Virus record (IMG/VR): IMGVR_UViG_3300009008_000095
Coordinates: 1-39,834 of that record
Origin: a virus
Reading direction: 5' to 3' (one strand)
Length of the DNA: 39,834 nucleotides
Shown piece by piece: positions 17,751-34,964 of the stretch. The translations under genes and the position numbers were made by a program. Each line of letters starts with the position of its first letter. Position 1 is the stretch's first letter. The notes beneath the pieces were generated by a model. It was given only the letters and a program-made list of their open reading frames with translations, was not told the origin of the DNA and searched no databases.

Positions 17751-18785
17751 TTAAAGAATTTTAGCTAGTTTCTGAAATCTGTTCTTCAACTCAGAACCTT
17801 CAGCCAAAACTTCTTTAGTTTCGGTTTTAGGTTTTGTAGAAGCAACAGCTTTAGAAGCTGAACCTTTGTTCTCATTTACAGATTTTTTAGCAGAAGAACC
17901 AAACGATTCAGCTATAGTTGAAAATACCAACTTAACTTCACGTAGATTCTTTGCTCTATCAAACTGCTCAATGACTTTAATTTTCTGTTCATTAGTCATA
18001 GAATGATTCCTGAACAACTTGTTAGTAAACAAGAGTTTAGCATTGAGTAGATTGACCTCATTTAATTTAGACCGTAGATACTTAACTACTTCGCGATGTT
18101 CTCCAAGTTCAGATTTAAGTTGAGTAATTTCATCCACTTCTTCTTCCTCTTCTTCCTCTTCTTCTTGTAGAGCTTTCAACACTTCTTCAAGGTCAAGTTC
18201 CTCTTCCATATCCTCTTCACCCTCTTCATCAGCTGGTGCTTCGGCATCTAAATCTAAATCACCTTCATCATTAGCAGGTTCAGGCATGAACTCAGAATCA
18301 TCAGCAGCGATGTCAACTGGTGCATCACCAAGGTCAACTTCGTCTTCTTCTTCAGGTGAAGCGAATTCATCTTCCTCTTCCTCTTCAGTCAGGTCTGATT
18401 CTAATTCTCTCAGAACTGCTTCAAGGTCAAGGTCGTCATCTTCTTCATCACCTGCTTCTTCTTCATCACCTTCTTCAGCTTCTGGTTCTTCTTCGGCTTC
18501 TTCAGCTTCTTCTTCACCAGCTTCTTCAGCTTCTTCTTCTGCACCTTCTTCAGCATCTATTTCAGCTTCATCTTCTACAGCGTCTTCAGCTTCTGCTTCT
18601 TCGTCTTCTTCATCATAAAATTCATCATCTTCTAATTCGTCTTCGACTTCATTCTGAATCTTTTGTGAAAGCATTTGATTTAGTCTTGGAGTAAAGGCTT
18701 CTTGTAAAGCTACTTTGGCGTTTTCCAACGCGGTCTCACGAACTGCTTTTGCATCTGCGATTGCATTTTTCAAAAGGTCGTCCAT
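17751..18785 (-). CDS. 22: Prohead core scaffold protein (gp22-like)
   Basis: A 344-residue product (T4 gp22 is 269) directly upstream of gp23. The N-terminal helix is Ala-rich. About residues 50-220 are extremely acidic, with long Asp/Glu runs. The C-terminal half has gp22-like segments: LGEHREVVKYLRSKLNEVNLLNAKLLFTNKLF and MTNEQKIKVIEQFDRAKNLREVKLVFSTIAE. T4 gp22 is cut up by gp21 during head maturation. Here L27-Q28-E29|A30, I291-A292-E293|S294 and L-A-E329|G330 fit the T4 cleavage consensus. GGAG precedes the ATG. The long three-hairpin leader upstream may control gp22-gp23 expression. Confidence 0.9.
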   Translation of the reverse strand: MDDLLKNAIADAKAVRETALENAKVALQEAFTPRLNQMLSQKIQNEVEDELEDDEFYDEEDEEAEAEDAVEDEAEIDAEEGAEEEAEEAGEEEAEEAEEEPEAEEGDEEEAGDEEDDDLDLEAVLRELESDLTEEEEEDEFASPEEEDEVDLGDAPVDIAADDSEFMPEPANDEGDLDLDAEAPADEEGEEDMEEELDLEEVLKALQEEEEEEEEEVDEITQLKSELGEHREVVKYLRSKLNEVNLLNAKLLFTNKLFRNHSMTNEQKIKVIEQFDRAKNLREVKLVFSTIAESFGSSAKKSVNENKGSASKAVASTKPKTETKEVLAEGSELKNRFQKLAKIL

Positions 18786-18810
18786 TTTAATTCTCCAAAT
18801 TAAAGGATTC

Positions 18811-18890
18811 TATTGTTATTTAGGAACAATAATACTGAACTATCTTCAGTACACCATATCAGGACTTACCAGGCATGGTAAAATGGTGTA
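18811..18890 (-). ncRNA. Three-hairpin leader upstream of gp22
   Basis: The 156-base gap between bS21 and gp22 holds three perfect inverted repeats. TACACCAT/ATGGTGTA spans 18850-18890 with a nested TTACC/GGTAA at 18866-18881. TACTGAA/TTCAGTA spans 18833-18851. TATTGTT/AACAATA spans 18811-18831. The second shares two bases with the first, so they may alternate. No U-run follows directly, so this is more likely a leader or processing structure than a plain terminator. No known RNA family is recognised. Confidence 0.55.
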
Positions 18891-18901
18891 TTTGATTTTT
18901 A

Positions 18902-18911
18902 TATAAATATC
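18902..18911 (-). promoter_or_regulatory. GATATTTATA motif upstream of the gp22-gp23 leader
   Basis: An exact copy on the coding strand, about 10 bases before the first hairpin and about 30 bases after the bS21 stop. It could start the scaffold-capsid transcript, leaving a leader of about 100 bases. Confidence 0.42.
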
Positions 18912-18941
18912 AGCTAAAAAAGTAAAACGTTCAAACCCCCT

Positions 18942-19148
18942 TCAGGTTTTTTCCCGTTCCATTCTTAACTTATCATATTTAATTCTAAGTTTTGCCTTAG
19001 ATTTTTTGAGTCTTTTTATATGAGAAGGCTTCTTATAGAACTCCCTTTCTCTCAATTCGAGTAATAACCCAGACTCTTTTACTTTTTTCTTAAACTTTCG
19101 TAGAGCGAACTCTATCTTATTATCTCTTACATCTACCTTTATTGCCAT
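18942..19148 (-). CDS. rpsU: Ribosomal protein bS21 homologue
   Basis: A 68-residue basic protein, the length of bacterial bS21. It shows the family layout: an N-terminal strand (IKVDVRDNKIEFALRKFKKKV), E-S-G-L-L-L-E-L-R, then R-E-F-Y-K-K-P-S and a Lys/Arg-rich helical tail. bS21 sits on the 30S subunit near the Shine-Dalgarno/anti-Shine-Dalgarno helix and helps start translation. Viral bS21 genes are known in marine phages, including pelagiphages. Here the gene is the last of the head-region operon and lies just before the gp22-gp23 leader. A viral copy may enter host ribosomes and favour phage messages; that role is inferred. The ribosome site (GTAGG) is weak. Confidence 0.93.
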   Translation of the reverse strand: MAIKVDVRDNKIEFALRKFKKKVKESGLLLELREREFYKKPSHIKRLKKSKAKLRIKYDKLRMEREKT

Positions 19149-19169
19149 ATAAAACCTACTTTTCTTTTT

Positions 19170-19490
19170 TTAACTAAGTTCGTAATCTCCATAGTCATCT
19201 GATAGTTTCATTTTTAGTGCATCAGCTAAATCTTCGAGTGACGTATGAAAATTCTCATCATCATCTGTTCTCATTCCAGCTGTTATTTTAAAACCAACAA
19301 CGTTTTTACCCTCAATGTCTGCTAACATACCTTGTTTCGTACCATCTAAGTAAAATACCTTACCTTTCATCTTACCAAACTTTTTAAGTTTACTAATTGG
19401 TATTTCTTTTCCTAAAAATATATCAGTTGATTCTGATAATTGTGTTTTGAATAATCTTTCGTAATTTTCTTTTAAAAAATGTTTTGTCAT
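19170..19490 (-). CDS. Small head-region protein with putative capsid-targeting peptide
   Basis: A 106-residue product. Residues 1-20 (MTKHFLKENYERLFKTQLSE) form an amphipathic helix ending at L18-S19-E20|S21, a T4-type prohead protease site. The remainder (FLGKEIPISKLKKFGKMKGKVFYLDGTKQ, then a Glu/Asp-rich C-terminus) is not recognised. The ATG overlaps the stop of the preceding gene. By position it may be a head internal or core protein. Function unknown. Confidence 0.65.
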   Translation of the reverse strand: MTKHFLKENYERLFKTQLSESTDIFLGKEIPISKLKKFGKMKGKVFYLDGTKQGMLADIEGKNVVGFKITAGMRTDDDENFHTSLEDLADALKMKLSDDYGDYELS

Positions 19491-20143
19491 TATGAATTTT
19501 TCCAGTTTTTATCTACCCAATTAAAGAAATCTTTCTTATCTTCATCACTAAGTTCATCTGGTGAATCAACACCAAACTTCTTCATAGCCGCTTGAAAGAA
19601 TTTCTGATATGCTTCTTTGTCACCACTCTCTGGTTTATCTAAGTCTTTTACATCAGCTTCACTTAAAGTATTAGAATCCTCTATTTCGTAATATCTACTT
19701 AAAATGTTACCCATATCTTCATAAAGAGTTTCCATTCTACGTTGCATTAAATTTGATTCTTTCGCAGCTTTAACAAATTGAGTAGCTAAACCACCAAGTT
19801 CTTTCATATTTCGTTTTACCGACACTCTATCAAACCAATCATCAGTTTCATTCATAGTATGAATCTTTGCAGACTCAACAATTTCTGATAGTTTAAGAGC
19901 TATGTCTTTTAAATTTGTTTCTCTATAAATATCTTTACCTATATGACCATAATTCTTAACGTCTTCAAGAAAACGATTAACATTAATAGTTGCTTCTGAT
20001 TCAGACCAAGACTCTGGGTTTCCTTCCTTGACCAAGGACGATAATTTAATACCAGAACCACGAACTTCGTCATTCACCTTAAATGGCTTTCCAGTGACTA
20101 CACCACCTGCCATAAAAAATTCTTTTAATACTTTCTTTTTCAT
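19490..20143 (-). CDS. Head-region protein of unknown function
   Basis: The start is placed at the ATG at 20143, which has an AGGGG ribosome site and lies 10 bases after the previous gene. A longer reading from 20203 would overlap that gene and lacks a site. The 217-residue product starts MKKKVLKEFFMAGGVV, then PFKVNDEVRGSGIKLSSLVKEGNPESW. It is mostly charged helices. The C-terminal part (DLDKPESGDKEAYQKFFQAAMKKFGVDSPDELSDEDKKDFFNWVDKNW) resembles a short helical domain common in marine T4-like head proteins. It is translationally coupled to the next gene. No catalytic residues are evident. Confidence 0.68.
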   Translation of the reverse strand: MKKKVLKEFFMAGGVVTGKPFKVNDEVRGSGIKLSSLVKEGNPESWSESEATINVNRFLEDVKNYGHIGKDIYRETNLKDIALKLSEIVESAKIHTMNETDDWFDRVSVKRNMKELGGLATQFVKAAKESNLMQRRMETLYEDMGNILSRYYEIEDSNTLSEADVKDLDKPESGDKEAYQKFFQAAMKKFGVDSPDELSDEDKKDFFNWVDKNWKNS

Positions 20144-20153
20144 TGTAAATCCC

Positions 20154-20867
20154 CTATTTTTTGGGTTGTTCTTTTCCTTCTTCACCCTTTGGGTCAGTAC
20201 CAACTGACTTGGCTCGTTTTAATCTCTCATCTCTTTTGGCTTGTATATCAGACCGAACATTATTCATCTTATTTTCATCATTATTGAACGCCGCCGTAAC
20301 AAATTCCCACTTTAATGAGTATTCTTCTTTTCTTATTTCTAAATCTTCTATTAAATTTTGTAATGCAACATAATTTTTATCACCAGCTTTTGTTTGTGAT
20401 TGTAATGCACCCAATCTTTTTATCTCATCATCTATTGCTTTATTATATGTAGCTTTAGCATTAGATTGGTTATTGATATATGTTGCAGAAACTTTAGTGT
20501 ATCCAACTCTACCACCAGTTGCACGTCTTTCTTGGTCTTCTTTACCCCTAATAGCCGCTAAACTATCTATATTAGCACTAACAGATTTTGTTTTAGTTTG
20601 TTGTTTCTGATATTTGGATTTAGGTACAATAAATTTATCACCACTCAACAAAGCTTGATGTCTCCATCCATCTATATCAGAACTTGTTATTCCTTTCGAA
20701 ACCTTGGTTGCTAAGTCAAATAAACCTTTATCTTGTTTTCTTTGACCTGTTTCACCACCAGCTACTTTAGAGTAATCTTGAACGGGATGACCACCTTTGG
20801 AAACTGGTGCTTCCATAAGTTCACGAATACATTCTTTAATTATTTTTCTAATATCAGTTTGGTTCAT
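20154..20867 (-). CDS. Head-region protein, tandem paralogue of the next upstream gene
   Basis: The start is the ATG at 20867 (AAAGG site, 13 bases after the preceding stop). An upstream ATG at 21014 would overlap the preceding gene by 134 bases. The 237-residue product opens with MNQTDIRKIIKECIRELMEAP, an amphipathic helix ending at L17-M18-E19|A20. The middle and C-terminus (GWRHQALLSG, VPKSKYQ, SLAAIRGKED, YTKVSATYINNQ, YVALQNLIEDLEIRKEEYSLKWEFVTAAF, RAKSVGTDPKG) align segment by segment with the last 300 residues of the 460-residue upstream gene, so this is a tandem duplication. Mostly helical, Lys-rich, unknown role; an internal head protein is a fair guess. Confidence 0.7.
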   Translation of the reverse strand: MNQTDIRKIIKECIRELMEAPVSKGGHPVQDYSKVAGGETGQRKQDKGLFDLATKVSKGITSSDIDGWRHQALLSGDKFIVPKSKYQKQQTKTKSVSANIDSLAAIRGKEDQERRATGGRVGYTKVSATYINNQSNAKATYNKAIDDEIKRLGALQSQTKAGDKNYVALQNLIEDLEIRKEEYSLKWEFVTAAFNNDENKMNNVRSDIQAKRDERLKRAKSVGTDPKGEEGKEQPKK

Positions 20868-20880
20868 TATTTTTTTACCT

Positions 20881-22263
20881 TTATTTTGATGGTTGCCAGA
20901 AGCCGTCTCGCATTGATTCGGCAGGTGGTATATTAGACCACATCCATTCATGGTCTCTTGCTCCTTTAGGTATGGTAGCTTGATAAGTTTGTTTTCCATC
21001 GGTAACTTTATCACCTTCTCTCACTTTGATACCTCTTTCCCATTCTTGAGTTCTTCCACCGATAGACCCGGCCGGGTCTTCTCCGACAGACTTAGCTCTC
21101 TTCTTTATTGTATCTCTTTTAGATTCTATATTTGTACGAGCGTTATTCATAGCAGTTGTATTACCATTATAAGCCGCTGTCGCGAAATCCCATCTTAATG
21201 CATATTCTTCTTTTTTATATCCTAAATCATCAATTAAATTTTGTATAGCTACATAAGTTTTTTCAATTGTCTGACCACCACCTTTTATATAAGCAGCTTG
21301 AAGAGTTTGTAGAGCCGTAATCTCAGCATTTATTGCCGAGTTATAAGCACTTTTAGCAGCAGACTTTTGGTTGATGTAAGAAGCACTCACCTTCATTTTA
21401 GCACCACCTAATGCGGTTGACCTTCCACCTTGGGATTTTCTTTTAACATCATCAGACGCACGTATTGAAGCTAGATTGTCAAGTGTACCACTAACAGCTT
21501 TTTGTTTAGTTCCTCTACCACCTGGAGTTCTTGTACCTTGGTATTTAGATTTTCCGATAATTGCTCTCTTATCAGTTAATGCATCCGTTCTCCAAGCATC
21601 AATTTTACCTAAGTTCTGACCTTTTATTATAGACGCTAGTGCAGAAGCTTTAGTAGTTCTAAACGATTTTCTTGACCCAACATTTCCACCTTTCCAACCT
21701 CTTTCTGAACCTGCTCTTTCACCAGCATCACCACCTAATGAAGTATAAGACCGTAATGTATATCCACCTTTAGATATTCCACCAGGTAGAGCTGGTGAAG
21801 CCCCACCAGCAGATTTGGAACCAGGAGCTTTACCTTTTCCTTCTAAAATTTCACCTATCATTTGTTTTATCATATATTTAAATTGAGATTTTTTCATTTT
21901 ACTTTCTCCAAAAATTTGTTTATAATTATTATCTGGATTTATATATTTAATTCCAGCTCCACTTTGTTGTGTACTATCAACTTTATGTTTTTTCATCTTT
22001 GATGGAACACTTGTCATTCCATTTCCAATTTGTTTTTCAAGAACTTCTTCTTCATAGTCTTCATATACACTCTTAATTCTTTTAGGTTTTATTGCACTAC
22101 CTTGTACTTTTGCTTTAGCTTTTTCTTCTACTTCATTAGCCAATTTAGCATTTTTGTTTGGGAAGTATCCTCTTCCATCAAACTTATCACCCTTTTTACC
22201 AGAAAAACTATTGGCTTCTTTAGAAACTTGAACCAACGTCTTCCATTTTTTAGACTTTTCCAT
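20881..22263 (-). CDS. Head-region protein with possible internal start
   Basis: A 460-residue product. Residues 1-120 are a charged, low-complexity region (DKFDGRGYFPNKNAK, EDYEEEVLEKQIG). Residues 123-142 (MKKSQFKYMIKQMIGEILEG) are an amphipathic helix ending at I139-L140-E141|G142, matching the N-terminus of the downstream paralogue. A Gly/Ser-rich stretch and the duplicated helical domain follow (about 215-400: WRTDALTDK, KSKYQGTRTPGG, SASYINQKSAAKSAYNSAI, YVAIQNLIDDLGYKKEEYALRWDFATAAY). The end (VREGDKVTDGKQTYQATIPKG, then a Trp-rich tail) resembles a small carbohydrate-binding fold. The first ATG has no ribosome site. The ATG at 21897 does (GGAG, 8 bases). Confidence 0.7.
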   Translation of the reverse strand: MEKSKKWKTLVQVSKEANSFSGKKGDKFDGRGYFPNKNAKLANEVEEKAKAKVQGSAIKPKRIKSVYEDYEEEVLEKQIGNGMTSVPSKMKKHKVDSTQQSGAGIKYINPDNNYKQIFGESKMKKSQFKYMIKQMIGEILEGKGKAPGSKSAGGASPALPGGISKGGYTLRSYTSLGGDAGERAGSERGWKGGNVGSRKSFRTTKASALASIIKGQNLGKIDAWRTDALTDKRAIIGKSKYQGTRTPGGRGTKQKAVSGTLDNLASIRASDDVKRKSQGGRSTALGGAKMKVSASYINQKSAAKSAYNSAINAEITALQTLQAAYIKGGGQTIEKTYVAIQNLIDDLGYKKEEYALRWDFATAAYNGNTTAMNNARTNIESKRDTIKKRAKSVGEDPAGSIGGRTQEWERGIKVREGDKVTDGKQTYQATIPKGARDHEWMWSNIPPAESMRDGFWQPSK

Positions 22264-22267
22264 TATA

Positions 22268-22277
22268 TATAAATATT
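22268..22277 (-). promoter_or_regulatory. AATATTTATA motif before the 460-residue gene
   Basis: A near copy of the recurring element, only 4 bases before the ATG at 22263, too close for a normal leader. It may serve the internal start at 21897 instead. Confidence 0.3.
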
Positions 22278-22284
22278 AGATTAC

Positions 22285-23064
22285 TTAAAAAAGTCTTCGT
22301 TCATAGTATAAAGTCTTTTGTGTTTGTTTCCAACCACCAACTGTATCACCTTTTCTATTTCTAAAATACCAAATACCAGGTTTGGTTAAATCGTCAACAA
22401 CTGATTTCCACTTGACTTTTAATTGTTTTAACATCTTTTTAGCATCTTTTAAAGATGGTATATTGATTATAAATTTCTTTGGCATATTCTTATCCATTGG
22501 TTTAGACGGGCCTCCACCTCCGAACCAACTTGATGTACCTCTACCCCAAGCTTCAAGAAATAATGGGTCTGGTATCTCCAAAAACTCATAAACAATATTA
22601 CGAACATCACTTGGAAATCGTGTATCTTGTCCAAAAGATTCAATATTACTTCTAAATACAGTTGCAGAATCACCAGTACCCAAATTTAAAGCATTTATAA
22701 CAATCTCATCCTTATCTTTATGTAATAAAACTGTATATAAAGAATTATATGTGTGACCACCACCATCATCTCTTTTAAAAAATGTTCTACCAATGACAAC
22801 ATATGATTTATCATAACCAGATTGTTGAATAGTGTTAGATACATCTCCGGCAACACTACCAACAAAGTCACCACCAACTACAGCCCCAGTATCAGCTTCT
22901 AATAGTATTTCTTTTACTATCTTTTCTACTTCTGAACGCATCCTTTTGGATATCTCTATAGCTTTTAATTGTTTCAACGCTTTTTCCTTTGAATCATGTG
23001 TTCCAAGTCGTTTCCCGCCTTTTTTAGGATAGACTGCCCACTTACTACCAATCTTTTTAATCAT
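22285..23064 (-). CDS. Head-region protein of unknown function with protease-site motif
   Basis: A 259-residue product. Residues 1-36 (KWAVYPKKGGKRLGTHDSKEKALKQLKAIE) form a module common in phage proteins: an aromatic strand, KxGK-x-LGTH and a Lys-rich helix. Residues 42-60 (MRSEVEKIVKEILLEADTG) are an amphipathic helix with L54-L55-E56|A57. The rest includes GGDFVGSVAGDVSNTIQQSGYDKSYVVIGRTFFKRDDGGGHTYN and a C-terminal KSVVDDLTKPGIWYFRNRKGDTVGG strand. It overlaps the upstream gene by 4 bases (ATGA), so the two are translationally coupled. Function unknown. Confidence 0.68.
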   Translation of the reverse strand: MIKKIGSKWAVYPKKGGKRLGTHDSKEKALKQLKAIEISKRMRSEVEKIVKEILLEADTGAVVGGDFVGSVAGDVSNTIQQSGYDKSYVVIGRTFFKRDDGGGHTYNSLYTVLLHKDKDEIVINALNLGTGDSATVFRSNIESFGQDTRFPSDVRNIVYEFLEIPDPLFLEAWGRGTSSWFGGGGPSKPMDKNMPKKFIINIPSLKDAKKMLKQLKVKWKSVVDDLTKPGIWYFRNRKGDTVGGWKQTQKTLYYERRLF

Positions 23065-23849
23065 TTTCTTTTCAATTTTTTATTTGGTGAATATCTACGA
23101 AAACCATCTCTAACTTTTCTCCATAACATTTTCATAAAAGGTCTTTCACCCTCATGTGTTCTATTTAATGGACCAGTATCAATTCCTCTTACAATATCCA
23201 TAGCATCATATCTACCACCCTTTACACCATCCATCATTATTTTAATTATTTGTTGAGATGCTTTACCTAAAATTTTTGACATTTTCGTAATATCTTGATT
23301 TAAAATTTGTTGTGCTTCTGGTGAACTAAAAGCCGCTTCATTTATGGATTCAAGTGATAACCAACCTTTTTCATTAGCTAAATGCCAAGTTTCTTTTGTA
23401 AATCGTTCTTTTCTATTACCTGGTGCTACAAACAAATAACTTGTTCCTGATGGGTCACCTTTTACTTTATGTCCTACTGATATATCTTTTAATGTGTATA
23501 ATCTACGAGGGTCATTTTGAAATCTTATTTTAAGTCTGTTAATATCTTTCTTTTGTGGAAGAAGTGTTGTTTTGAATTTACCTTCATTTACGGATTCGTT
23601 ATATCTTTTATCACTTAACATATCCTTCATTAACTTTGATTTGGCAATTATGTAATCCAATTCTGTTTCTATAACATCATCATTTTTTTGTTGGATACCT
23701 TTTACTAAATCTTTTACTGAACCTGCAAGATATCTTGCTTGACCTTTTAATTCAGCAAATCCTTGTTTACTCAAATCTTCCTTTACTTGAAATGGTGGTC
23801 TATCTTTATCAGTATAAACTTTACCTTGAACTATATCTTTTAATTTCAT
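23061..23849 (-). CDS. Head-region protein with internal protease-site motifs
   Basis: A 262-residue basic protein. It begins MKLKDIVQGKVYTDKDRPPFQVKE, with helices in the middle (LAGSVKDLVKGIQQKNDDVIETELDYIIAKSKLMKDML). V87-N88-E89|G90 and I169-N170-E171|A172 match or nearly match the T4 gp21 site. The region between (RLKIRFQNDPRRLYTLKDISVGHKVKGDPSGTSYLFVAPGN) could be a small folded domain. The C-terminus (GVKGGRYDAMDIVRGIDTG to PNKKLKRK) is strongly basic. It overlaps the 57-residue gene by 1 base and the next gene by 4. Function unknown; a DNA-binding or core protein is possible. Confidence 0.68.
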   Translation of the reverse strand: MKLKDIVQGKVYTDKDRPPFQVKEDLSKQGFAELKGQARYLAGSVKDLVKGIQQKNDDVIETELDYIIAKSKLMKDMLSDKRYNESVNEGKFKTTLLPQKKDINRLKIRFQNDPRRLYTLKDISVGHKVKGDPSGTSYLFVAPGNRKERFTKETWHLANEKGWLSLESINEAAFSSPEAQQILNQDITKMSKILGKASQQIIKIMMDGVKGGRYDAMDIVRGIDTGPLNRTHEGERPFMKMLWRKVRDGFRRYSPNKKLKRK

Positions 23850-24022
23850 TAATCTCTCTTGTAAGGAACTACTTTATTTAAAAATTCTTTTCTTTTAGTA
23901 CATCCACCACATTCTTTAATTGTACCACGAGATACTGTATTGATAGCTCGTGCAATTGTATCACCGAGACCTCTATCAATTTTTTTTATAGCATTATTTT
24001 CTTTATTTGTAAAATTTTTCAT
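23849..24022 (-). CDS. Small CxxC protein (57 residues)
   Basis: It fills the gap between two larger genes exactly. The ATG at 24022 is 1 base after the previous stop, and its TAA shares an A with the next gene's ATG. The sequence has GLGDTIARAINTVSRG followed by ECGGCTKRKEFLNKVVPYK. A G-L-G-D-T-I helix, then a CGGC/CGC knuckle and K-x-x-L-N-x-x-x-P-Y recurs in small marine phage proteins, so this is a real gene despite its size. The CxxC may bind metal or form a disulfide. Function unknown. Confidence 0.75.
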   Translation of the reverse strand: MKNFTNKENNAIKKIDRGLGDTIARAINTVSRGTIKECGGCTKRKEFLNKVVPYKRD

Positions 24023-24023
24023 T

Positions 24024-24611
24024 TTATAGATTCATACTTTGTCGTTTTTTCATAGACTTCGCTCGTTTCTTTAAAATCTTACCCATTTTAGCTTTCATAG
24101 CCTTTGCACGTTTTCTAGCGGCTTTTTTTCCAATTTTTACATCTTTAGCAGTCTGTTTTTTACATTTTCTTCCACTACTATCTACTTTAAATCCTGGTGG
24201 ACATTGTAATTTTTTAACTCTTTTACCCTTTTTAATTTTTATAACCCATTGTCCAACTTCTGTTAAACTTTCATCCTTTGAAACTACATCAACGTCAAAT
24301 TGATATTCTTCTTTGACGTACTTCTTTATAAATTTGTAATTTTTTATAAGTAATCTAGCATTCTCATCTAAATCTTCAAACGCATTACGAACAACTTCTT
24401 GGTTTAATTCATTTTCTTCTGGTGTTTTTTTAGGGTCATCAGGTTTCATGATGAAATCCATATACTTTGGCATATTAGTTAAGGTAGGAATAAGATTTTG
24501 TGCCGCACCAGTCATTCCAGCAATCAAACCTTCAAGAGTTTCATCTCCATCACCCTCATTTAATTGTTCAATTCGGAAATTCTTCCATTTTTTCCACATA
24601 TTATGATTCAT
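24024..24611 (-). CDS. Head-region protein with basic tail and targeting peptide
   Basis: A 195-residue product. Residues 1-19 (MNHNMWKKWKNFRIEQLNE) form a basic amphipathic segment ending at L17-N18-E19|G20, a T4-type gp21 site. Residues 25-110 are acidic to neutral helices (LEGLIAGMTGAAQNLIPTLTNMPKYMDFI). The C-terminal third (about 125-195) is extremely Lys/Arg-rich with a two-Cys motif (QCPPGF...GRKCKKQ). A basic tail like this could bind packaged DNA, as some T4 internal proteins do. It lies 2 bases after gp21. Exact role unknown. Confidence 0.7.
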   Translation of the reverse strand: MNHNMWKKWKNFRIEQLNEGDGDETLEGLIAGMTGAAQNLIPTLTNMPKYMDFIMKPDDPKKTPEENELNQEVVRNAFEDLDENARLLIKNYKFIKKYVKEEYQFDVDVVSKDESLTEVGQWVIKIKKGKRVKKLQCPPGFKVDSSGRKCKKQTAKDVKIGKKAARKRAKAMKAKMGKILKKRAKSMKKRQSMNL

Positions 24612-24613
24612 AT

Positions 24614-25234
24614 TTAAATACCACTTAATATATCAGAAATTATAGATTCGGTTTTACACCACTTATCACAAATAGTTCCATCTTCCCTTACATCTTCTCT
24701 ATTAACACTTTCGTTCATTGGATGCATAAACGCACCATGTGTAGATGGATTGGATACGAAATCAAAAGCTATCAATTCAAAGTCTTTTTGTACTTCTACT
24801 GTATCATCATCTTTACTTTCTGATACTGAACCCATACCGCGGGAAGAAATACCAAGTTTAATACCAGCTTTAAATAGTTCTTTTAATATATTTCCAGCAG
24901 GTGTTGTTAAAACTTCAATCTTACCAAGTAGATTGTCTCCTTCCCACCACATATCTCTTACATTGTGAGAAACATTCTTTAAATTAACAACCGAAGACTC
25001 TGGATGGTCAAGTTCTCCCATCGCTCGAGCTTCCTTTACAAATTCTTTTGTATATTTTGTAGATTCTCTCATTAAAATCTCTTTTGGATATACTCTTCCA
25101 TTTTGATTCTTTGAGTTAGCTCTTTGTAGTACACCACTAACAATCAATTTACCAGAATTATCTGTAATTGATTCGTTTATATGTTGTGATGATACTTCAA
25201 AAAGTAAAGTATCTATTAAAAGTGATTTCGTCAT
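24614..25234 (-). CDS. 21: Prohead maturation protease (gp21-like)
   Basis: A 206-residue serine protease (T4 gp21 is 212) that cuts scaffold, capsid and internal proteins during head maturation. Catalytic regions are visible: G-E-L-D-H-P-E-S with His77, and G-I-S-S-R-G with Ser130/131, matching T4 His85 and Ser140. It also has conserved NQNGRVYPKEIL and FVSNPSTHGAFM. The N-terminus carries I19-N20-E21|S22, a self-cleavage type site. The C-terminus adds two Cys (CDKWCK). AAGGAG precedes the ATG. It lies among genes whose products carry the matching cleavage motif. Confidence 0.94.
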   Translation of the reverse strand: MTKSLLIDTLLFEVSSQHINESITDNSGKLIVSGVLQRANSKNQNGRVYPKEILMRESTKYTKEFVKEARAMGELDHPESSVVNLKNVSHNVRDMWWEGDNLLGKIEVLTTPAGNILKELFKAGIKLGISSRGMGSVSESKDDDTVEVQKDFELIAFDFVSNPSTHGAFMHPMNESVNREDVREDGTICDKWCKTESIISDILSGI

Positions 25235-25245
25235 TTTCTAACTCC

Positions 25246-25860
25246 TTATTTCATAAAATCAAATTCTTTATTATTAAATTGAGTTTCAAACTCTTCGGCA
25301 TAATCTTTTGCCAACACTAACCTATCCTTCTTAGTAAACATATCACGAGCACTACCTCCGTAATTTTTAGCATATGATTTAGCACCATCGTCAACTAAGT
25401 ATTTAAAAGCTTTAACAGCTAATTTAGGATTAAATTTATTCCTTTTCTTAAATTTAGATAAATTTTTAAGAATAGGTATATATCTTGACTTATAAATTTT
25501 AGCATCATTATCAATAAACAATCTTAATTCTCTAGCTTCGTCTGATAGTCTCTCCTTTAATATACCACTTCTGTCTAACTTCTTTAATTCTTCATAAACC
25601 ATTTGTTTTAAAGTAATTATAGACTCATTTTTCTTCTTTTCATCAATTTTCTGAAGTAAGAATCCTTTTGCAAGTTTTTTCTCTCTTACAAATTCGGTAT
25701 CTCCGTATTTTCTTCTTAGAGTAACGGGTAATTCTACATTACCACCATGATTGATAAAATGAGCAACTCTTTTTGCATCAACTTTATAAATTTTTCTCCA
25801 CTTATTTTCTGGAAGATTGTTTAACCAACGATGTACTTCTTTTATTTTAAATCGTTTCAA
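25246..25860 (-). CDS. Head-region protein of unknown function
   Basis: A 204-residue, strongly basic, mostly helical protein. It begins MKRFKIKEVHRWLNNLPENKWRKIYKVDAKRVAHFINHGG, then LPVTLRRKYGDTEFVREKKLAKG. The second half is rich in Lys/Tyr (YKSRYIPILKNLSKFKKRNKF, KAFKYLVDDGAKSYAKNYGG). No clear gp21 site at the N-terminus, unlike several neighbours. It lies between the 66-residue gene (2 bases) and gp21 (11 bases). A core or DNA-binding head role is possible from charge and place only. Confidence 0.65.
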   Translation of the reverse strand: MKRFKIKEVHRWLNNLPENKWRKIYKVDAKRVAHFINHGGNVELPVTLRRKYGDTEFVREKKLAKGFLLQKIDEKKKNESIITLKQMVYEELKKLDRSGILKERLSDEARELRLFIDNDAKIYKSRYIPILKNLSKFKKRNKFNPKLAVKAFKYLVDDGAKSYAKNYGGSARDMFTKKDRLVLAKDYAEEFETQFNNKEFDFMK

Positions 25861-26070: not shown

Positions 26071-26313
26071 TCAAGAAACTCTTCTCAAATTTGGGTCAAT
26101 AGCCAACATATATCCTAAGACTGTTGGTTGTTTATGACCACCACCATATCCAGCTTTCTTCTTTTTCTTCTTCTTACTTACCCAATATGGTGTTGTTGGT
26201 GGCCCTTCCCCACCATCTATGTTAGCAGAAACTGATGCTTCATCTAAAACATCAAGTATCATCTGCTTCAACAACTCTTTAAGTTGTTGTTCCTTAGTTT
26301 TTTGTGATGACAT
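26071..26313 (-). CDS. Small head-region protein with targeting peptide and ANIDGGEGPPTTPYW motif
   Basis: An 80-residue product. Residues 1-25 form an amphipathic helix (LKELLKQMILDVLDE) ending at L23-D24-E25|A26. This is followed by SANIDGGEGPPTTPYW, a short motif that recurs in small proteins near the prohead genes of marine T4-like phages. Then come a run of 7 Lys and a Gly-rich segment (AGYGGGHKQPTVLGYMLA). The start overlaps the previous gene by 20 bases. Probably a prohead core or internal protein. Confidence 0.65.
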   Translation of the reverse strand: MSSQKTKEQQLKELLKQMILDVLDEASVSANIDGGEGPPTTPYWVSKKKKKKKAGYGGGHKQPTVLGYMLAIDPNLRRVS

Positions 26314-27169: not shown

Positions 27170-27208
27170 GTTAATTACTCCATTAAATTTTTTATACTAT
27201 GATACAAT

Positions 27209-27218
27209 TATAAATATT
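27209..27218 (-). promoter_or_regulatory. AATATTTATA motif after the portal gene
   Basis: A near copy in the 57-base gap between gp20 and the 291-residue gene, about 40 bases before that gene's ATG. Confidence 0.35.
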
Positions 27219-27226
27219 AAAGTATT

Positions 27227-29050: not shown

Positions 29051-29063
29051 TTTATCCTCTTCC

Positions 29064-30641
29064 TTATATTAACCATTCTAATGATTCTTTACCATCACCA
29101 ACATCCATTTGCCAACTATCGTTTTTATTGACATCTTCGGTATCATAAACACCTTGATGGGATTGAAAATAATCGAATGAACGTTTTGTAAGTTCTATAC
29201 CTTCTGCTCTCAATCTTAGAGCCGTATCTCTAACCCACAAACCTATAGCTAAACTCATAACAAGGTCATCATTGTACCCTACCATAGCTTCAGCTCTACT
29301 ATTCTTATATATAAATACAAACAACTCATCAATTAATCGTTGTGAATTAACGCTTACTGACTTTTCTCTGAAATATTCCTCTAATTTAGCAATAACAAGT
29401 GGTCTTGTCTTTGCTGTCATACTAAATCCTGGAACCATGTTCCTATCTTGACTTCTATATCTATTTGTCAATTGTTTTGCTGTATCTACATACATTAAAT
29501 CTTTTGATGTATAAAATAAATTCGGATATTCTGAATCTATTATGGTTTGTATAGCAGACCAACCAATATTATTGTTTTCCACAATTAATAATGCTTTATT
29601 ATACTCTGTAGCAACACTTACACACATATTACCAAAATCTTTAGTTCCAATTTTACCTTTATATTCTGCTACTTGTTTCATTGACTCTACATCAATCACA
29701 TGAAACGCTGAAAAGTCTGTACCATCTCCTCTACTAACATCAGCACTTAACACATAATCTTTAGAATAATCTGGATATTCCCATATCCACATATTAGAAT
29801 CAAATCCTCTTCTTTCAATTGGTTCTTTTACAAAATTTTCTCTATAATCTTCTATTATAAGACCATCAATTACAGTTTGACCAGAAGTTATAAAACTACA
29901 ATCACACTCTTGAGCGGCTAACGATGGCCCTAATAATAAATCTTGTTTACTTCTCCACTCTTCTCCTCTTTCTGGGTGTATTGTCCAATGTAATTTTATA
30001 AAGTTCCATCCATTTATCCCATCTTCGGCATCCATCCAAGTTCTATGAAACCAATTACCAACACCATTTGGTGTAGATAGTGCAATACATTGACCACCCG
30101 TAGATAGTGTTTGTGATGCGGCAGCCCATATTGTATCAATCTTGTCTATAAATGCAGCTTCATCAAGAACTAATAGAGATAGTGCTTCTGAACGACCAGC
30201 TTCTTCCGAACTTGCTACAGCTTTAATTTGTGAACCATTTTTATATCTCAAAGATAATTTGTTATCTTCAACACAACTTTGTTTTAACCAAGATGGTAAA
30301 TTAGCATGCATAACACGAACTTTTGTTACAAGATTTTTAGCAGTATCTTGTTTTGTAGCAATAACAAGAATATTTTTATCTTGATGAAATGTCATTAACC
30401 AAAGTGAATATCCAGCTGTTAATGTTGATATACCCAACTGACGTGCTTTTAAAATAACACTAAGTCTATTATCTTTAAAGTCCTCCAATGTTTTTTCTTG
30501 AAAATCCCATAATTGAAATGGTATTTTGCCTTTAATTGGATGCTGTATCATACAATACTTCTTTAAAAAGTATACTGGGTCTTTGGCACACTTGACGTAT
30601 TCAGACCTAACTAATTGTTTTAAGTCTTGTTTATCACTCAT
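29064..30641 (-). CDS. 17: Terminase large subunit (gp17-like)
   Basis: A 525-residue packaging motor. The ATPase domain has a Walker A variant (KARQLGIST, residues 65-73), Walker B LLVLDEA (156-162) and the coupling motif ALSTPNG (187-193). The RNase H-like nuclease domain has acidic residues at SADVSRGDGTDF (Asp301), VENNNIG (Glu355) and YNDD (Asp458/459). It pumps DNA through the portal and cuts concatemers. It is shorter than T4 gp17 (610) mainly at the N-terminus. The gene overlaps the preceding 73-residue gene at TAATG. Confidence 0.96.
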   Translation of the reverse strand: MSDKQDLKQLVRSEYVKCAKDPVYFLKKYCMIQHPIKGKIPFQLWDFQEKTLEDFKDNRLSVILKARQLGISTLTAGYSLWLMTFHQDKNILVIATKQDTAKNLVTKVRVMHANLPSWLKQSCVEDNKLSLRYKNGSQIKAVASSEEAGRSEALSLLVLDEAAFIDKIDTIWAAASQTLSTGGQCIALSTPNGVGNWFHRTWMDAEDGINGWNFIKLHWTIHPERGEEWRSKQDLLLGPSLAAQECDCSFITSGQTVIDGLIIEDYRENFVKEPIERRGFDSNMWIWEYPDYSKDYVLSADVSRGDGTDFSAFHVIDVESMKQVAEYKGKIGTKDFGNMCVSVATEYNKALLIVENNNIGWSAIQTIIDSEYPNLFYTSKDLMYVDTAKQLTNRYRSQDRNMVPGFSMTAKTRPLVIAKLEEYFREKSVSVNSQRLIDELFVFIYKNSRAEAMVGYNDDLVMSLAIGLWVRDTALRLRAEGIELTKRSFDYFQSHQGVYDTEDVNKNDSWQMDVGDGKESLEWLI

Positions 30642-30862
30642 TATGCTACTGAACTTGAATACATTGTCTGTACTTTACGTAAATAAGTTTCTGTTTGTGA
30701 AATTAAAGATGCGTCACTACCACTTGCATTCAAATTAACAATTTCTGTTTGTAATGAATCTGCAATAGTTGATAGGTACGTAGGATTTCTAAGATTTCCT
30801 CTCTTATTATCACTAAGAGTTTGTATCTTTGTCTTTAACTCTGTAATTGAACTTACAGCCAT
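30641..30862 (-). CDS. Small helical protein upstream of terminase
   Basis: A 73-residue product (MAVSSITELKTKIQTLSDN..., LQTEIVNLNAS, SQTETYLRKVQTMYSSSVA), predicted helical. AAGGAG precedes the ATG, and its stop overlaps the gp17 start, so the two are coupled. The place fits a small terminase subunit (gp16), but T4 gp16 is more than twice as long and no similarity is visible. A structural cofactor is equally possible. Confidence 0.6.
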   Translation of the reverse strand: MAVSSITELKTKIQTLSDNKRGNLRNPTYLSTIADSLQTEIVNLNASGSDASLISQTETYLRKVQTMYSSSVA

Positions 30863-30863
30863 G

Positions 30864-31424
30864 TTAGTTCTCCTTAGTTTCTATTTTAGATAGTTCTAAA
30901 TCTATCTTTTCTAATAATTCTTTATAATGTCCTATAGCTTCATCGGCTTGTTCTATAATTTTTTCTTTATTAACATCCCATTTTTCTTTTTCAACGGAAT
31001 GTCCATCAGGATTAATTTGATTATAAAATGTAACATCTCCTTGATTCTTCCATTCAGTAACATTTTGTAATTGTTCTTCTACAAAAGAACGTTGATTTAA
31101 TAAAACTTTCTTTTTAGCCCATTCGTGATATGTTCCTTCAATACGAAGTTTATTTTCAATTACAACTTGACAATCAAAACAATGTCCAAATAATCTCCAC
31201 ATTTTATCGTCTAATTTTTTCTTCATTACCTTATCACATTCTGGACAAAACCAAGGTACTCGTGCTTCTGCCATAATATCAGTTAAATGACTCTTCTGGT
31301 CACCCTTTTTCTTTTTCTTGATATCTGACATACTTACAAATATTCTTTTTTCTGGTGTACCACCATCTAAAATACTTTGTAACGCTCTGTTTTGTCTTTC
31401 TGACTCTTTACTATATCCTGCCAT
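30864..31424 (-). CDS. Zinc-ribbon protein of unknown function
   Basis: A 186-residue product. A four-Cys knuckle pair (W-F-C60-P-E-C63 and G-H-C82-F-D-C85) with KKKLDDKMWRLFGH between predicts a zinc ribbon. The N-terminus (residues 1-50) is helical and basic. The C-terminal half is a charged helix (EKWDVNKEKIIEQADEAIGHYKELLEKIDLELSKIE). Similar Cys-rich proteins occur in marine T4-like phages. It lies two genes before gp17, so a packaging role is possible. Functional identity unknown. AGG-type site upstream. Confidence 0.72.
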   Translation of the reverse strand: MAGYSKESERQNRALQSILDGGTPEKRIFVSMSDIKKKKKGDQKSHLTDIMAEARVPWFCPECDKVMKKKLDDKMWRLFGHCFDCQVVIENKLRIEGTYHEWAKKKVLLNQRSFVEEQLQNVTEWKNQGDVTFYNQINPDGHSVEKEKWDVNKEKIIEQADEAIGHYKELLEKIDLELSKIETKEN

Positions 31425-31431
31425 AATTATC

Positions 31432-34089
31432 CTATATGTACTTTAATAAACCTAAAATTTGATTAACTGGAGCAAAAGTACCAGTATATTTGTATAACTT
31501 ACCATTAAAAGTAAATGTTATACCTTCTGTTGATGTTATAGTACCAAATCCACCTATTGATTCTAATCTCTTTAATTGTTTTTCTAATTTTTTTATCAAA
31601 TTTAAATCACCACTACTTTGAACTGCTTTTATAGTGTCTTCTAAATCCTTTTTGATTTTTTGAGCTCCTTCGTCTGGGTTAGCGGTCAACAATTGTGTCA
31701 TATTTAACATTATCTCTGTGCCAAGTCCTAAGAACAAGTCTTCCCAAGGTGTAATATTTTCTTTAAATTTTGCTTTATGGTCTTCTTTATCAGTAGTTAA
31801 AACCCAATCTAAAAATTTTGGAAATTTTTTCATATCCTTTTTAATTTGTGGAATCTTATATGACTTATCAAAGAATGCCCACCTTTTAACTAATCTAATA
31901 AACATACTTTCTGGTAATTTAGTCTTAGTTCTCTTTAAAGCTTTGTTAATATACTCTGTCCAAAAAGCTTGATGATAGTCACCCAACGTGTTATTAGGTT
32001 TTAACTTATATTTTTTCTGTAAAGTGTTTAATTTACCAATATAGAATTTTTTACGATTTGAAAAGTCCTTTACTTTTGGTAATTCTACAACTGGTGGATA
32101 TTCTATTTTATATTGAGTTTGTACATCCTTGTTAACTTGTTTAATCATACCAGTTAACATTCTTGCAAATTGAGAATAGTCACCTATTGCATTTCCTTTA
32201 TCGTCATATTGAAGTACACCATGAAATATCAATAATGATTTCTCATATGGAATCACATTTGCTGTTTTTGGATAGATAATTTCCAAAGACATAAATTGTT
32301 CACCCTCTTTAAAAATTTTATCTCTTTGTTTATCACTAATAGCACCTATAGCATCTTCTAAATCTCTCATAGCTCCTGCAAAAGCTTTGTGTAAATCACC
32401 TCTACCTGCAAACATCTTACTAATACCATTCGTAGTTAACGCACTAGCACCCTTATTCATCAAATGACCTTTGTTTCTAGCCGCTATAAGTTTACCATTT
32501 CTCCAACTTATCATTATATTCTGACCATCTGTCTTTTCTGTAGCTGGTTTTTCTTTACTAAGATTACCTTGTAGTGTATTAGTAATCATTGTTCTGAAAT
32601 CTCTGAATGTTAAATTATTATCATCAAATGGATGTGCTAAATGTCCATATGCTCCACCTTCTGTCATTAACCTTTTTACATCATCTACAATATCAATTCT
32701 TTCTTTTAATGGTTTTTCTTTTGGAAACTTTCTTTTCAACAATACGTTTAATGATTTTATAGCACTTTTATCATCCGAATGTAATCCTACATCAACATTA
32801 TTTATAGAAACTGGTGTATCAATTATAGCAGTATATCTATATTTACTACCACCCGCTTTTTTCTTTTTAAGTTTTACAGATTCTTTTAATTTAGCTTTCT
32901 TACCTTTAGTTCCTTTATAAGACCATGTGGCTTTACCTTTACCATATTCTTCTGTTGGTTTTTGGGATATCTCAAGTCCTTTACCATCTTTATGCATCCA
33001 TTTAAGTATTTCCCAACCAAGTCTTTCTGATATGCTTGTTAATCTTTCTAAATAATCCTTCGAGGCGTGTTTACTACCTGGTATAGAACCAACTCTTCCA
33101 AACGTAACATTAGATATTGGGTCATCAATCATAGTAAAATCCATGTCAGGGTCTAAAACTTCTGGTTCTTTATCTTTTATCATAAATTCAACAACAGACC
33201 AACCAGTTTTTTGCATAAACCAAGGTACTGCATCTTTAGCTACTCTATAATAGTCTGAAAAATTTCTATAAAATGTTCCTGGCCCATCATCTGGTGCTCC
33301 ACCACCTGCATTAGCACCACGTTTGGAATTGGTAGTTAAAGTAGTAGAAGATTCTTGTATCATTTTTGGTACATCATTGTCAACACAAAAATTAGCTACA
33401 ATTTCCTTAGTCAAAAGTATACCATTTGGTCGCTTATGGTCGAACATCAATCTGTTCGTAATAAATTCATACATTGAGTTATCAAACTTACCGAAAATAA
33501 CCTTAAATAATTTTTTCTTTTTCTTGTCATCTATATCTGGGGAACTTAAAAGTTTTCTAACTTGTGTTCCACTTATATTAGAACCACCCACCTTTAACTT
33601 AAAGGTTGGTACTATATAAATATACCCGTTATCTTCAAAACCCTTCAATTTTGTTACATCGCCAGTATATGGTTTAAAATATTTACCACCAAGTCTTTGA
33701 CCATCCTTTTCACCCAAACCAACTGCGACGGCCGTGTGTTCTTTATCGTATTTGGACAAGATATTAATTGGTGCATAAACATTTTTTTCTTGTACTATTT
33801 GATTTTTTCTGATATTATACATCTTACTAATAATTTTTTGTTTCTCTTTAAAATTAAAAGGATGTCTATCACCACCACTTACATTAGATGTAGCTATAAA
33901 AGTATCCTTAGCACCAAACTCTTTTTGCATTTCTTTAAAAGTATTAAAATGTCCTGCGTGAAATGGTTGAAATCTACCAACATAAACACCAACAATTCTG
34001 TTTATACCTTTAGGGTCAGCACCATGTACCTTGGATTCTCCAAGAGTATCACTAACAATAGATTCTACGAGTTTTTTCATTCCCTTCAT
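31432..34089 (-). CDS. Nucleotidyltransferase fused to ligase-like domain (multi-domain, possible polyprotein)
   Basis: An 885-residue product. Residues 1-18 (MKGMKKLVESIVSDTLGE) form an amphipathic peptide with L16-G17-E18|S19. Domain 1 (about 31-215) is a cytidylyltransferase/NMN-adenylyltransferase fold: GRFQPFHAGH (38-47, the HxGH motif) and ISGTQVRKLL (172-181). I244-Q245-E246|S247, a gp21-type site, lies in the linker. A middle region of unknown fold follows. Domain 3 (about 478-885) has EKTDGQN (Lys519), RNGKLIAARNKG, FMSLEIIYP (600-607) and EGITFTFNGKLYKY (855-868). These match ligase/nucleotidyltransferase motifs I, III/IV and V; the domain resembles DUF6267 of cyanophages. The start overlaps the kinase gene by 4 bases. 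Substrate unknown. Confidence 0.8.
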   Translation of the reverse strand: MKGMKKLVESIVSDTLGESKVHGADPKGINRIVGVYVGRFQPFHAGHFNTFKEMQKEFGAKDTFIATSNVSGGDRHPFNFKEKQKIISKMYNIRKNQIVQEKNVYAPINILSKYDKEHTAVAVGLGEKDGQRLGGKYFKPYTGDVTKLKGFEDNGYIYIVPTFKLKVGGSNISGTQVRKLLSSPDIDDKKKKKLFKVIFGKFDNSMYEFITNRLMFDHKRPNGILLTKEIVANFCVDNDVPKMIQESSTTLTTNSKRGANAGGGAPDDGPGTFYRNFSDYYRVAKDAVPWFMQKTGWSVVEFMIKDKEPEVLDPDMDFTMIDDPISNVTFGRVGSIPGSKHASKDYLERLTSISERLGWEILKWMHKDGKGLEISQKPTEEYGKGKATWSYKGTKGKKAKLKESVKLKKKKAGGSKYRYTAIIDTPVSINNVDVGLHSDDKSAIKSLNVLLKRKFPKEKPLKERIDIVDDVKRLMTEGGAYGHLAHPFDDNNLTFRDFRTMITNTLQGNLSKEKPATEKTDGQNIMISWRNGKLIAARNKGHLMNKGASALTTNGISKMFAGRGDLHKAFAGAMRDLEDAIGAISDKQRDKIFKEGEQFMSLEIIYPKTANVIPYEKSLLIFHGVLQYDDKGNAIGDYSQFARMLTGMIKQVNKDVQTQYKIEYPPVVELPKVKDFSNRKKFYIGKLNTLQKKYKLKPNNTLGDYHQAFWTEYINKALKRTKTKLPESMFIRLVKRWAFFDKSYKIPQIKKDMKKFPKFLDWVLTTDKEDHKAKFKENITPWEDLFLGLGTEIMLNMTQLLTANPDEGAQKIKKDLEDTIKAVQSSGDLNLIKKLEKQLKRLESIGGFGTITSTEGITFTFNGKLYKYTGTFAPVNQILGLLKYI

Positions 34090-34964
34090 TTTCTATCCCT
34101 AAGTTTATCAAGTTTTCTTTTAATAGAATATCGTTTATCTTCTAATTTTTTCCAAACACCCTTAATTGGTGATGTTCCGGCTGGAAACCATTTAAAATAC
34201 ATTAATCTATCAACTAAACCACTATCATTTTTACCTTCTTTAGCATATACTTTATATGCACCACTCATCAATTTAGCATAGTTTTCAATAATCTTAGCAC
34301 CAACACCTCTACCAACGTTTTTCTCTCTCCACTTATCTCTTGCAACAGCTAATTCTGAATTTATTTCCAAATATACAATAATATTATGATAACCTTCTTC
34401 ACGAGTTTGTTTCAATCTACGTAAAATCTTTGGTGGTTTAGACGCTACTGTGTCTATTACAAGAAGTTTACCAGCCTTATGTACTTTAGTTTTAAACAAA
34501 TCCTTTTCATATTCTTTAGCTATATCTCTGATATCAAAGAACGATGCATAAAATGGTTTATACAATAGTTTATAAAAATTATTACTACCTTTATCTTTAT
34601 TCTGTAACCACCAATTAAAATCAAAAGGAAATGTAACTATTTTACCACGATTTGATGTATATGCCGAATTACCAACAAATTCACCAAATCCCCGTTCACT
34701 ACTACGTTCTTCATCTGGTGCTACTTTCAACAAGTGTTGGTAGTGTAACATAGCAGTATCATATTGTAAAGCCATAACTTGTGAATCAGAATTAGTTACA
34801 TTATATCCAGTAAATCCTGGTATGTAACTTGAACCCTCATTATTAATCCAAGTAGACTTACCAGCCGCAGGTAAACCCATCAGAACAACACAAAGTTTTC
34901 CTGTATCTTCAAGAAACTCACGAAGTTCTGATTTTATCATTTCCTTTAAGATTTTTTTGTTCAT
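34086..34964 (-). CDS. P-loop kinase-like protein with putative targeting peptide
   Basis: A 292-residue product. Residues 1-19 (MNKKILKEMIKSELREFLE) form an amphipathic helix with E16 or E19 as possible gp21 cut points (L-R-E|F, F-L-E|D). The domain then starts LCVVLMGLPAAGKST (Walker A, 30-38), followed by GYNVTNSDSQVMA and a later strand KLLVIDTVASKPPKILRRLKQTREEGYHNIIVYLEINSELAVARDKWREKN, which resembles the lid/Arg region of zeta-toxin or polynucleotide-kinase folds. It probably phosphorylates a nucleotide, sugar or RNA end; the substrate is not deducible. It overlaps the lysin gene by 1 base and the ligase-fusion gene by 4, so the three are coupled. Confidence 0.75.
   Translation of the reverse strand: MNKKILKEMIKSELREFLEDTGKLCVVLMGLPAAGKSTWINNEGSSYIPGFTGYNVTNSDSQVMALQYDTAMLHYQHLLKVAPDEERSSERGFGEFVGNSAYTSNRGKIVTFPFDFNWWLQNKDKGSNNFYKLLYKPFYASFFDIRDIAKEYEKDLFKTKVHKAGKLLVIDTVASKPPKILRRLKQTREEGYHNIIVYLEINSELAVARDKWREKNVGRGVGAKIIENYAKLMSGAYKVYAKEGKNDSGLVDRLMYFKWFPAGTSPIKGVWKKLEDKRYSIKRKLDKLRDRK

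Follow-up and report, generated by a model that had tools for sequence, protein, structure and literature searches.

Hydrophobic-x-E sites on head-cluster proteins of an uncultivated virus and at polyprotein module joints in its relatives

Here, we describe a short motif that recurs in the head-gene cluster of an uncultivated viral contig, the IMG/VR virus record IMGVR_UViG_3300009008_000095. The whole stretch analysed, positions 1 to 39,834 of that record, is called the window below. The motif, a hydrophobic residue, any residue and glutamate (hxE), ends putative N-terminal targeting peptides on unrelated proteins and resembles the cut site of a phage prohead protease. All 37 called genes of the 39,834-base window lie on the minus strand. 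They encode a capsid protein (PF07068), an S77 prohead protease (PF03420) and a portal protein (phrog_213); putative terminase and scaffold genes are taken from homology and gene order relative to annotated genes of Microcystis phage Mel-JY01 and Flavobacterium phage immuto, the nearest cultured phages by protease. The features that carry the motif are listed here, with an arrow at each predicted cut and the residue number after the glutamate.

31432..34089, minus: nicotinamide mononucleotide (NMN) adenylyltransferase with C-terminal ligase-like domain, 885 residues (PF01467; EKTDGQN)
34036-34089, minus: putative targeting peptide of the preceding protein, residues 1-18, LGE18↓S
34086..34964, minus: P-loop kinase, possibly of the zeta-toxin/polynucleotide-kinase kind, 292 residues (sub-cut-off Pfam and weak Foldseek matches)
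34908-34964, minus: weak putative targeting peptide of the kinase, residues 1-19, FLE19↓D
26071..26313, minus: 80-residue protein, putative targeting peptide residues 1-25 (26239-26313), LDE25↓A
24614..25234, minus: gp21-type prohead protease (S77), 206 residues (PF03420 2.9e-31, phrog_207 4.5e-56)
25172-25234, minus: N-terminal site of gp21 itself, INE21↓S
24024..24611, minus: 195-residue protein, putative targeting peptide residues 1-19 (24555-24611), LNE19↓G; weakly similar to phrog_3503, a head scaffolding family (2.1e-9)
23061..23849, minus: predicted small polyprotein of 262 residues with three sites, QVKE24↓D (E codon 23778-23780), ESVNE89↓G (23583-23585) and ESINE171↓A (23337-23339)
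22285..23064, minus: 259-residue protein; module of phrog_3684, a family of unknown function (residues 2-51, 22912-23061, 1.2e-11), then a helix-like stretch to LLE56↓A (E codon 22897-22899)
20881..22263, minus: 460-residue protein; N-terminal domain, internal targeting-like stretch of 19 residues from an in-frame ATG (residue 123) to ILE141↓G (E codon 21841-21843), then a domain common to the 237-residue paralogue
20154..20867, minus: 237-residue paralogue, putative targeting peptide residues 1-19 (20811-20867), LME19↓A
19490..20143, minus: 217-residue protein with short N-terminus LKE8↓F; relatives often start KLKDLLKE↓
19170..19490, minus: 106-residue protein, candidate site LSE20↓S (19431-19490)
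17751..18785, minus: gp22-type scaffold with LQE29↓A, IAE293↓S and LAE329↓G; the label comes from its position adjoining gp23 and from an earlier reading, its best family match being phrog_21946 (unknown function) at only 0.015
16116..17726, minus: gp23 major capsid protein (PF07068 5.4e-78) with IDE66↓S and also LLE41↓G

A sequence-only reading of the window had claimed that such products are targeted to the head and cut by gp21, and the sites on which it relied are in place. This holds for those ending N-terminal peptides on the NMN-adenylyltransferase (NMNAT) fusion and the 80-, 195-, 237- and 106-residue proteins, for the internal ones of the 460- and 259-residue proteins, and for gp23 at 66, gp22 at 29 and 293, and gp21 at 21. 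The sites of the 262-residue open reading frame (ORF) had been overlooked. The NMNAT fusion has a second site, LVE9↓S, within its targeting peptide and further hydrophobic-x-E at 246, 403 and 477. In the kinase, a glutamate does stand at position 19, but its context is FLE↓D, so the protein breaks the (L/I)xE rule under which it had been included; with homologues only in close relatives, we rejected it as a strong case of targeting.

Shuffled sequences provide a comparison close to the one that had been proposed for the first 60 residues. With E at 12-60, (L/I)xE↓(A/G/S) occurs in 9 of the 22 head-cluster genes, where shuffles give 2.28 (p 0.0002), and in 1 of the 14 tail genes, where they give 1.00 (p 0.64). 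With E at 12-30, a range that unlike the 60-residue one was picked after the finding was known, the motif is present in 7/22 head-cluster genes where shuffles average 0.93, a count reached by 0 of 5,000 shuffles, and in 1/14 tail genes against 0.39 (p 0.33). The excess persists when gp21, gp22 and gp23 are removed, at 5/19 against 0.70 with E at 12-30 (p 0.0006) and 6/19 against 2.01 with E at 3-60 (p 0.011). Across nine genomes and contigs, with E at 8-35, the head clusters have 44 such genes among 157 (10.4 expected); this count leaves out G007, a near copy of G006, and the row for G004, a longer contig of identical sequence in the region, was not used. Immuto alone has the motif in 12/28 head genes, a biased figure because its head range was set by hand after its N-termini had been read, and subtracting it leaves 32/129 against about 8.2.

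Conservation was assessed in 156 related loci, the best 80 from each of two scans with four common to both; several of them duplicate the sequence of the window, and near-identical sequences or contexts were removed, by rules of our own, before the conservation, joint, breakpoint, P1, pair and polyprotein counts given below. The site of gp21 itself is kept in 53/53 distinct orthologue sequence windows. In the 80-residue family, an anchored rule finds the site in 46/48 distinct sequences, and the two misses, which read LNE↓A, fail on spacing letters only; a looser rule gives 52/52 but could be met by other parts of the helix, and the anchored recount is preferred. The gp22 site at 29 is retained in 4/4 and the gp23 site at 66 in 7/7 distinct sequence windows, and close relatives of the NMNAT fusion retain [LI]xE↓[SAD] at the N-terminus.

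The 195-, 237-, 259- and 460-residue proteins retain their sites in those few relatives where the corresponding part exists. The 195-residue family reads [LV]xE↓G in 5/5 sequences listed, one of them the window's copy, at a varying distance from the start. The 259-residue family has hydrophobic-x-E↓[AS] in 5/6 of those listed, again including the window's, and the sixth shares the first module only. The 237-residue orthologue in locus L013 reads MFE↓A at the same position. The internal stretch of the 460-residue protein, with LE↓GKG, is retained in L106 and L013, the latter also having a copy that begins at this stretch. In several relatives, the last module of the 262-residue ORF is encoded separately, by a gene for about 113 residues that has an N-terminal peptide of its own, and the linkers of this ORF precede different modules in L014 and L098. 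In the NMNAT fusion and the 80-, 195- and 237-residue families, the peptide precedes different mature parts. No diverged homologue of the 106-residue protein was found among the loci fetched.

Many relatives encode long polyproteins in this region. Among 42 NMNAT representatives, some of which end at contig ends, 25 have at least 250 residues of the ORF upstream of the NMNAT motif, 16 contain a P-loop kinase module and 19 contain a module that may be DUF5872-like, a name returned by no search. The window's NMNAT gene is not so built: the kinase and the NMNAT-ligase-like protein are encoded separately there, and both have an N-terminal peptide of their own. Module order varies among phages. A second polyprotein ORF starts with DUF3008 (PF11450, above cut-off in 3/4 scanned), and its pieces are linked by sequences such as ESVNE, the commonest 5-mer ending in hxE among polyprotein representatives (33 copies). 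When these DUF3008 polyproteins of the relatives are cut in silico, 105 of the 118 pieces of at least 25 residues are net positive (median +9), with a median length of 72 residues. A Pfam scan of eight polyproteins (E 0.01) detected no peptidase family. One polyprotein (L136:750-5597) combines a poly(A)-polymerase/CCA-adding head domain (PF01743 1.1e-29), an RNA-binding domain, an HD domain (PF01966 5.3e-7) and an NMN-adenylyltransferase; an HDIGKD stretch is also present in L131 and L133.

The position of the site relative to these modules was examined in several ways. For four anchored modules, whose offsets were set after inspection and for which contexts within 12 residues of the ORF start were skipped, E occupies P1 in all 36 distinct upstream contexts (13, 9, 9 and 5 per module) and P3 is hydrophobic in 34, the upstream residues otherwise varying. 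We also took as breakpoints the starts and ends of local alignments between different proteins, counting hxE within 6 residues and drawing 300 controls from random places in the same proteins. In the NMNAT polyproteins, 89/176 left breakpoints lie near hxE (control mean 35.0, maximum 49), as do 65/162 right ones (mean 31.5, maximum 48). Other head proteins give 90/160 against 57.5 and 75/173 against 53.8; tail proteins have no excess (40/343 against 42.8 left, 27/305 against 37.6 right). When all 20 residues are scanned at P1, E stands out with z of 10.0 and 6.4 in the NMNAT polyproteins (next best 2.9) and of 8.5 and 8.3 in the DUF3008 polyproteins (next best 2.0). For modules that begin an ORF in one phage but lie inside one in another, the site lines up at the module start in 153/466 pairs compared with 222/2,305 control positions, and the tail counterpart gives 3/60 compared with 20/300. 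N-terminal peptide and internal linker thus appear interchangeable before the same module.

Of the candidate cargo, the adenylyltransferase domain (residues about 30-220) is firmly identified: PF01467 matches above cut-off (E 2.4e-6), and the best match of its predicted structure is NadM-type (Z 12.4, 159 aligned residues, root-mean-square deviation 3.3). A hydrophobic-x-E lies within 30 residues upstream of this domain in 18/21 distinct contexts, as against 30% of control windows, and hxE↓GGAYGH precedes the ligase-like domain in 31/42 representatives. In that C-terminal domain, E518-K519-T520-D521-G522 is invariant in 33 sequences (EKTDGQN) and is accompanied by a late EGITF-like stretch; EKTDGQN (KxDG) and EGITF would be ligase motifs, and the ligase identity is putative. 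Weak PDB-profile matches of this domain to ribosomal protein S6 look like an effect of composition and were discarded. The model of the 885-residue protein (mean pLDDT 56.1) has poor quality except in the adenylyltransferase and in some of the C-terminal half, and its fold-match list contains no ligase fold, the ligase-like part being barely covered by the comparison. In L023:3-4073, an extra 343-residue stretch lies between the adenylyltransferase and the ligase-like domain, flanked by LLIE↓Q and LILE↓G. The kinase matches AAA_33 and Zeta_toxin, both below cut-off, and Foldseek on a poor model (mean pLDDT 56.8) returns toxin-antitoxin (1.7e-3), epsilon/zeta (4.1e-3) and polynucleotide kinase (0.072) entries; with low confidence, we describe it as possibly zeta-toxin/polynucleotide-kinase-like. 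In immuto (L159), an annotated 5'-3' deoxyribonucleotidase at 9857-10456 lies near the head cluster, with a stretch to LLLE↓E before the enzyme domain, and may be another head-cargo enzyme.

Virion data from other phages touch on this enzyme type. NMN-adenylyltransferase was detected by mass spectrometry in virions of cyanophage S-SCSM1 purified on caesium chloride (CsCl), and the authors suggest that it may be carried into the cell or be carry-over of a highly expressed protein (PMC9602691). The enzyme or a homologue was likewise detected in S-CREM2 and is reported for S-CBWM1 and S-SZBM1 (PMC10665884). In our analysis, the N-terminal peptide of the S-SCSM1 protein ends LKE10↓A, and among the virion-labelled proteins encoded next to it is one that matches the DUF3008 module. 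The DUF3008 genes of S-SZBM1 and S-WAM1 are long ORFs that contain FIAE↓G or FLEE↓G in their interior.

We consider it probable that these observations on a marine T4-like phage reflect T4-type capsid targeting and prohead cutting by gp21, extended to modular polyproteins of head cargo. Such a signal is supported because it recurs on unrelated proteins, because P3 and P1 are kept while their neighbours change, and because the N-terminus of the protease and the module joints of relatives carry a like site; the comparative support covers most items of the sequence-only reading, the kinase site being weak. The N-terminal helical peptide of a cargo protein (about 15-25 residues) would dock it in the scaffold core, and the phage's S77 protease, gp21, would cut after hydrophobic-x-E and release the mature protein. 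The same cut site inside proteins would separate strung cargo modules in the prohead; modules could therefore be gained, lost or reordered at these sites, and one targeting peptide could bring in several of them. The cargo would include NMN-adenylyltransferase, P-loop kinase, the ligase-like domain and many small basic modules. We infer that gp21 does the cutting, that the products are part of the virion and enter the cell together with the DNA, and that early in infection they maintain nicotinamide adenine dinucleotide (NAD) and RNA against host defence; a role of the enzymes in offsetting NAD depletion or tRNA cleavage is a guess.

Other explanations have to be weighed against this one. The cargo might truly be targeted and cut, yet serve just as core filler or to condense DNA and then be degraded or retained, so that nothing useful is delivered. 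In T4, cutting reduces gp22, gp67 and gp68 to small peptides, which presumably exit from the head (PMC9958956), and most DUF3008 pieces are short and basic, as this would predict; enzyme domains with conserved motifs are nevertheless retained, and NMNAT is found in mature cyanophage virions (PMC9602691, PMC10665884), so we hold it to be unlikely, if the most plausible of the alternatives. Less probable still, in our judgement, is a reading without cutting, in which the hydrophobic-x-E linkers are flexible joints or scars of recombination and modules recombine through short DNA repeats that encode ESVNE. The 33 copies of ESVNE could indeed steer recombination; linkers vary widely outside P3 and P1, however, a like site ends the N-terminal peptides of single-module genes and is found in gp21, gp22 and gp23, and recombination alone leaves unexplained why only E is strongly enriched at P1. 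It is very improbable that the N-terminal motifs are a functionless by-product of Lys/Glu/Leu-rich helices in head-cluster proteins. Although the per-residue rate of hxE is 0.025-0.031 in other head proteins compared with 0.0105 in tail proteins, and genes outside the head cluster also have a weak excess, composition-preserving shuffles give about 1 where 7 are observed, the sites are kept in gp21 and the 80-residue family as counted above, and the breakpoint and pair controls were drawn from the same proteins.

Several results weigh against the explanation by targeting and cutting. Of the NMNAT breakpoints, 87/176 have no hydrophobic-x-E nearby, so the joint rule is not universal, and 11/42 representatives lack a site in front of the ligase-like domain. 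Proteins matching neither the head nor the tail proteins of the window show a breakpoint excess as well (127/349 against 72.2, 131/390 against 78.5), and the excess may reach beyond head cargo. In the nine genomes and contigs, genes outside the head clusters have a slight motif excess of their own (52/700 against 36.2, p 0.004). The enrichment is not significant in Mel-JY01 (2/19 head genes against 1.07), G003 (1/8 against 0.69) or G006 (3/14 against 0.90, p 0.059). Across the S-SCSM1 genome, the motif fails to set virion-labelled proteins apart from all others, at 8/46 compared with 25/191 (p 0.29); 47 labels came from GenBank products and notes, the paper speaks of 45 proteins, and gene calling recovered 46 labelled proteins, one shortened at a segment edge. 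The ligase identity of the C-terminal domain, also part of the earlier claims, was confirmed by no library searched, being unsupported by Pfam, NCBIfam and PHROGs scans and by a PDB profile search.

The likenesses to known systems are several. Internal proteins of T4 are packed by means of a short N-terminal targeting sequence that gp21 removes (PMC9958956, PMC5694885), and those of T-even phages are reported to be a varied set of defence proteins with the targeting sequence as their sole common part (PMC3012670). Like T4 internal proteins and Alt, the window's proteins have a short N-terminal peptide (10-20 residues in T4, PMC5694885) that the prohead protease would remove; unrelated cargo has a common targeting sequence in both, the proteases belong to the same S77 family, and the relatives' DUF3008 polyproteins cut in silico yield pieces that are small and basic, like mature T4-type internal proteins. 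Unlike in T4, the peptides here are about 15-25 residues long, the motif occurs in five head-cluster genes of one phage in addition to gp21-gp23, and in the relatives the site also lies between modules of long polyproteins. In the giant phage SPN3US, N-terminal propeptides of inner head and ejection proteins are cut after x-x-E by gp245, a related protease, and some of these proteins have multiple sites (PMC5694885, PMC10052503); several of these propeptides exceed 100 residues, however, and the available parts of those papers contain no case of modules joined or reordered at the sites.

The polyvalent proteins of Iyer and colleagues (2017, PMC5512222) are also multidomain, likely packaged in the capsid and injected, and the authors liken them to polyproteins; as in the relatives described here, many domains share one polypeptide beside packaging genes. 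Release is suggested there to involve an embedded peptidase domain (PMC5512222), whereas the sites here resemble those of a separate prohead protease. In P1 DarB, the N-terminal 30 residues suffice to bring a foreign protein into the capsid (PMC9024508); here, unlike there, a site is common to many proteins. The cyanophage virion NMNAT is the same type of enzyme as the window's domain, but no packaging signal is named for it in the available parts of the two papers (PMC9602691, PMC10665884), and the window's version is fused to a ligase-like domain, joined in relatives also by kinase and other modules. Targeting peptides, prohead-protease maturation and multidomain injected proteins (PMC5512222) are known; no description of shuffled polyproteins joined at prohead-protease sites was found in the open-licence literature searched, where the one polyprotein mentioned in PMC3012670 is a vaccine antigen.

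Elsewhere in the window, an HNH endonuclease gene with a NUMOD4 motif (15602-16066; PF13392 7.4e-19, PF07463 7.9e-9) separates the capsid gene from the adjacent one and looks like a homing endonuclease. The ORF at 3758-11035 encodes 2,425 residues and starts with GSSGTDG-type repeats, collagen-like by eye; long open frames opposite it look like by-products of the repeat. At 35481-37482, two adjoining tail-fibre-like proteins have similar ends, both with DFRLKENIEP, which may mark an intramolecular chaperone type of domain. A gene for ribosomal protein S21 (18942-19148; PF01165 2.7e-14) lies within the head cluster and shares the strand of the genes around it. An S21 gene association is known for Bacteroidetes phages, there on the opposite strand (PMC9723584), and given this association and the gene in the cluster, we infer that the host of the window phage is probably a member of the Bacteroidota.

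A wider picture, on which we are evenly divided, is that an aquatic T4-like clade, probably infecting Bacteroidota, makes virion polyproteins that are cut in the prohead and delivers with them a kit that restores NAD and mends cut tRNA. The kit, which would include a CCA-adding-type polymerase and an HD domain in one relative, would act before any phage gene is read, and because the sites would double as recombination joints, it would evolve through module swapping. If the targeting and cutting predicted here are real, capsid-targeted cargo would be a modular and fast-evolving system rather than a handful of accessory proteins, partly readable from sequence through one cut-site rule. This would explain the presence of NMN-adenylyltransferase in several cyanophage virions and would assign a function to many uncharacterised genes in the head clusters of marine phages. 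It would also mean that a tailed phage makes polyproteins somewhat as animal viruses do, and that what phages inject besides DNA becomes testable by N-terminal mass spectrometry.

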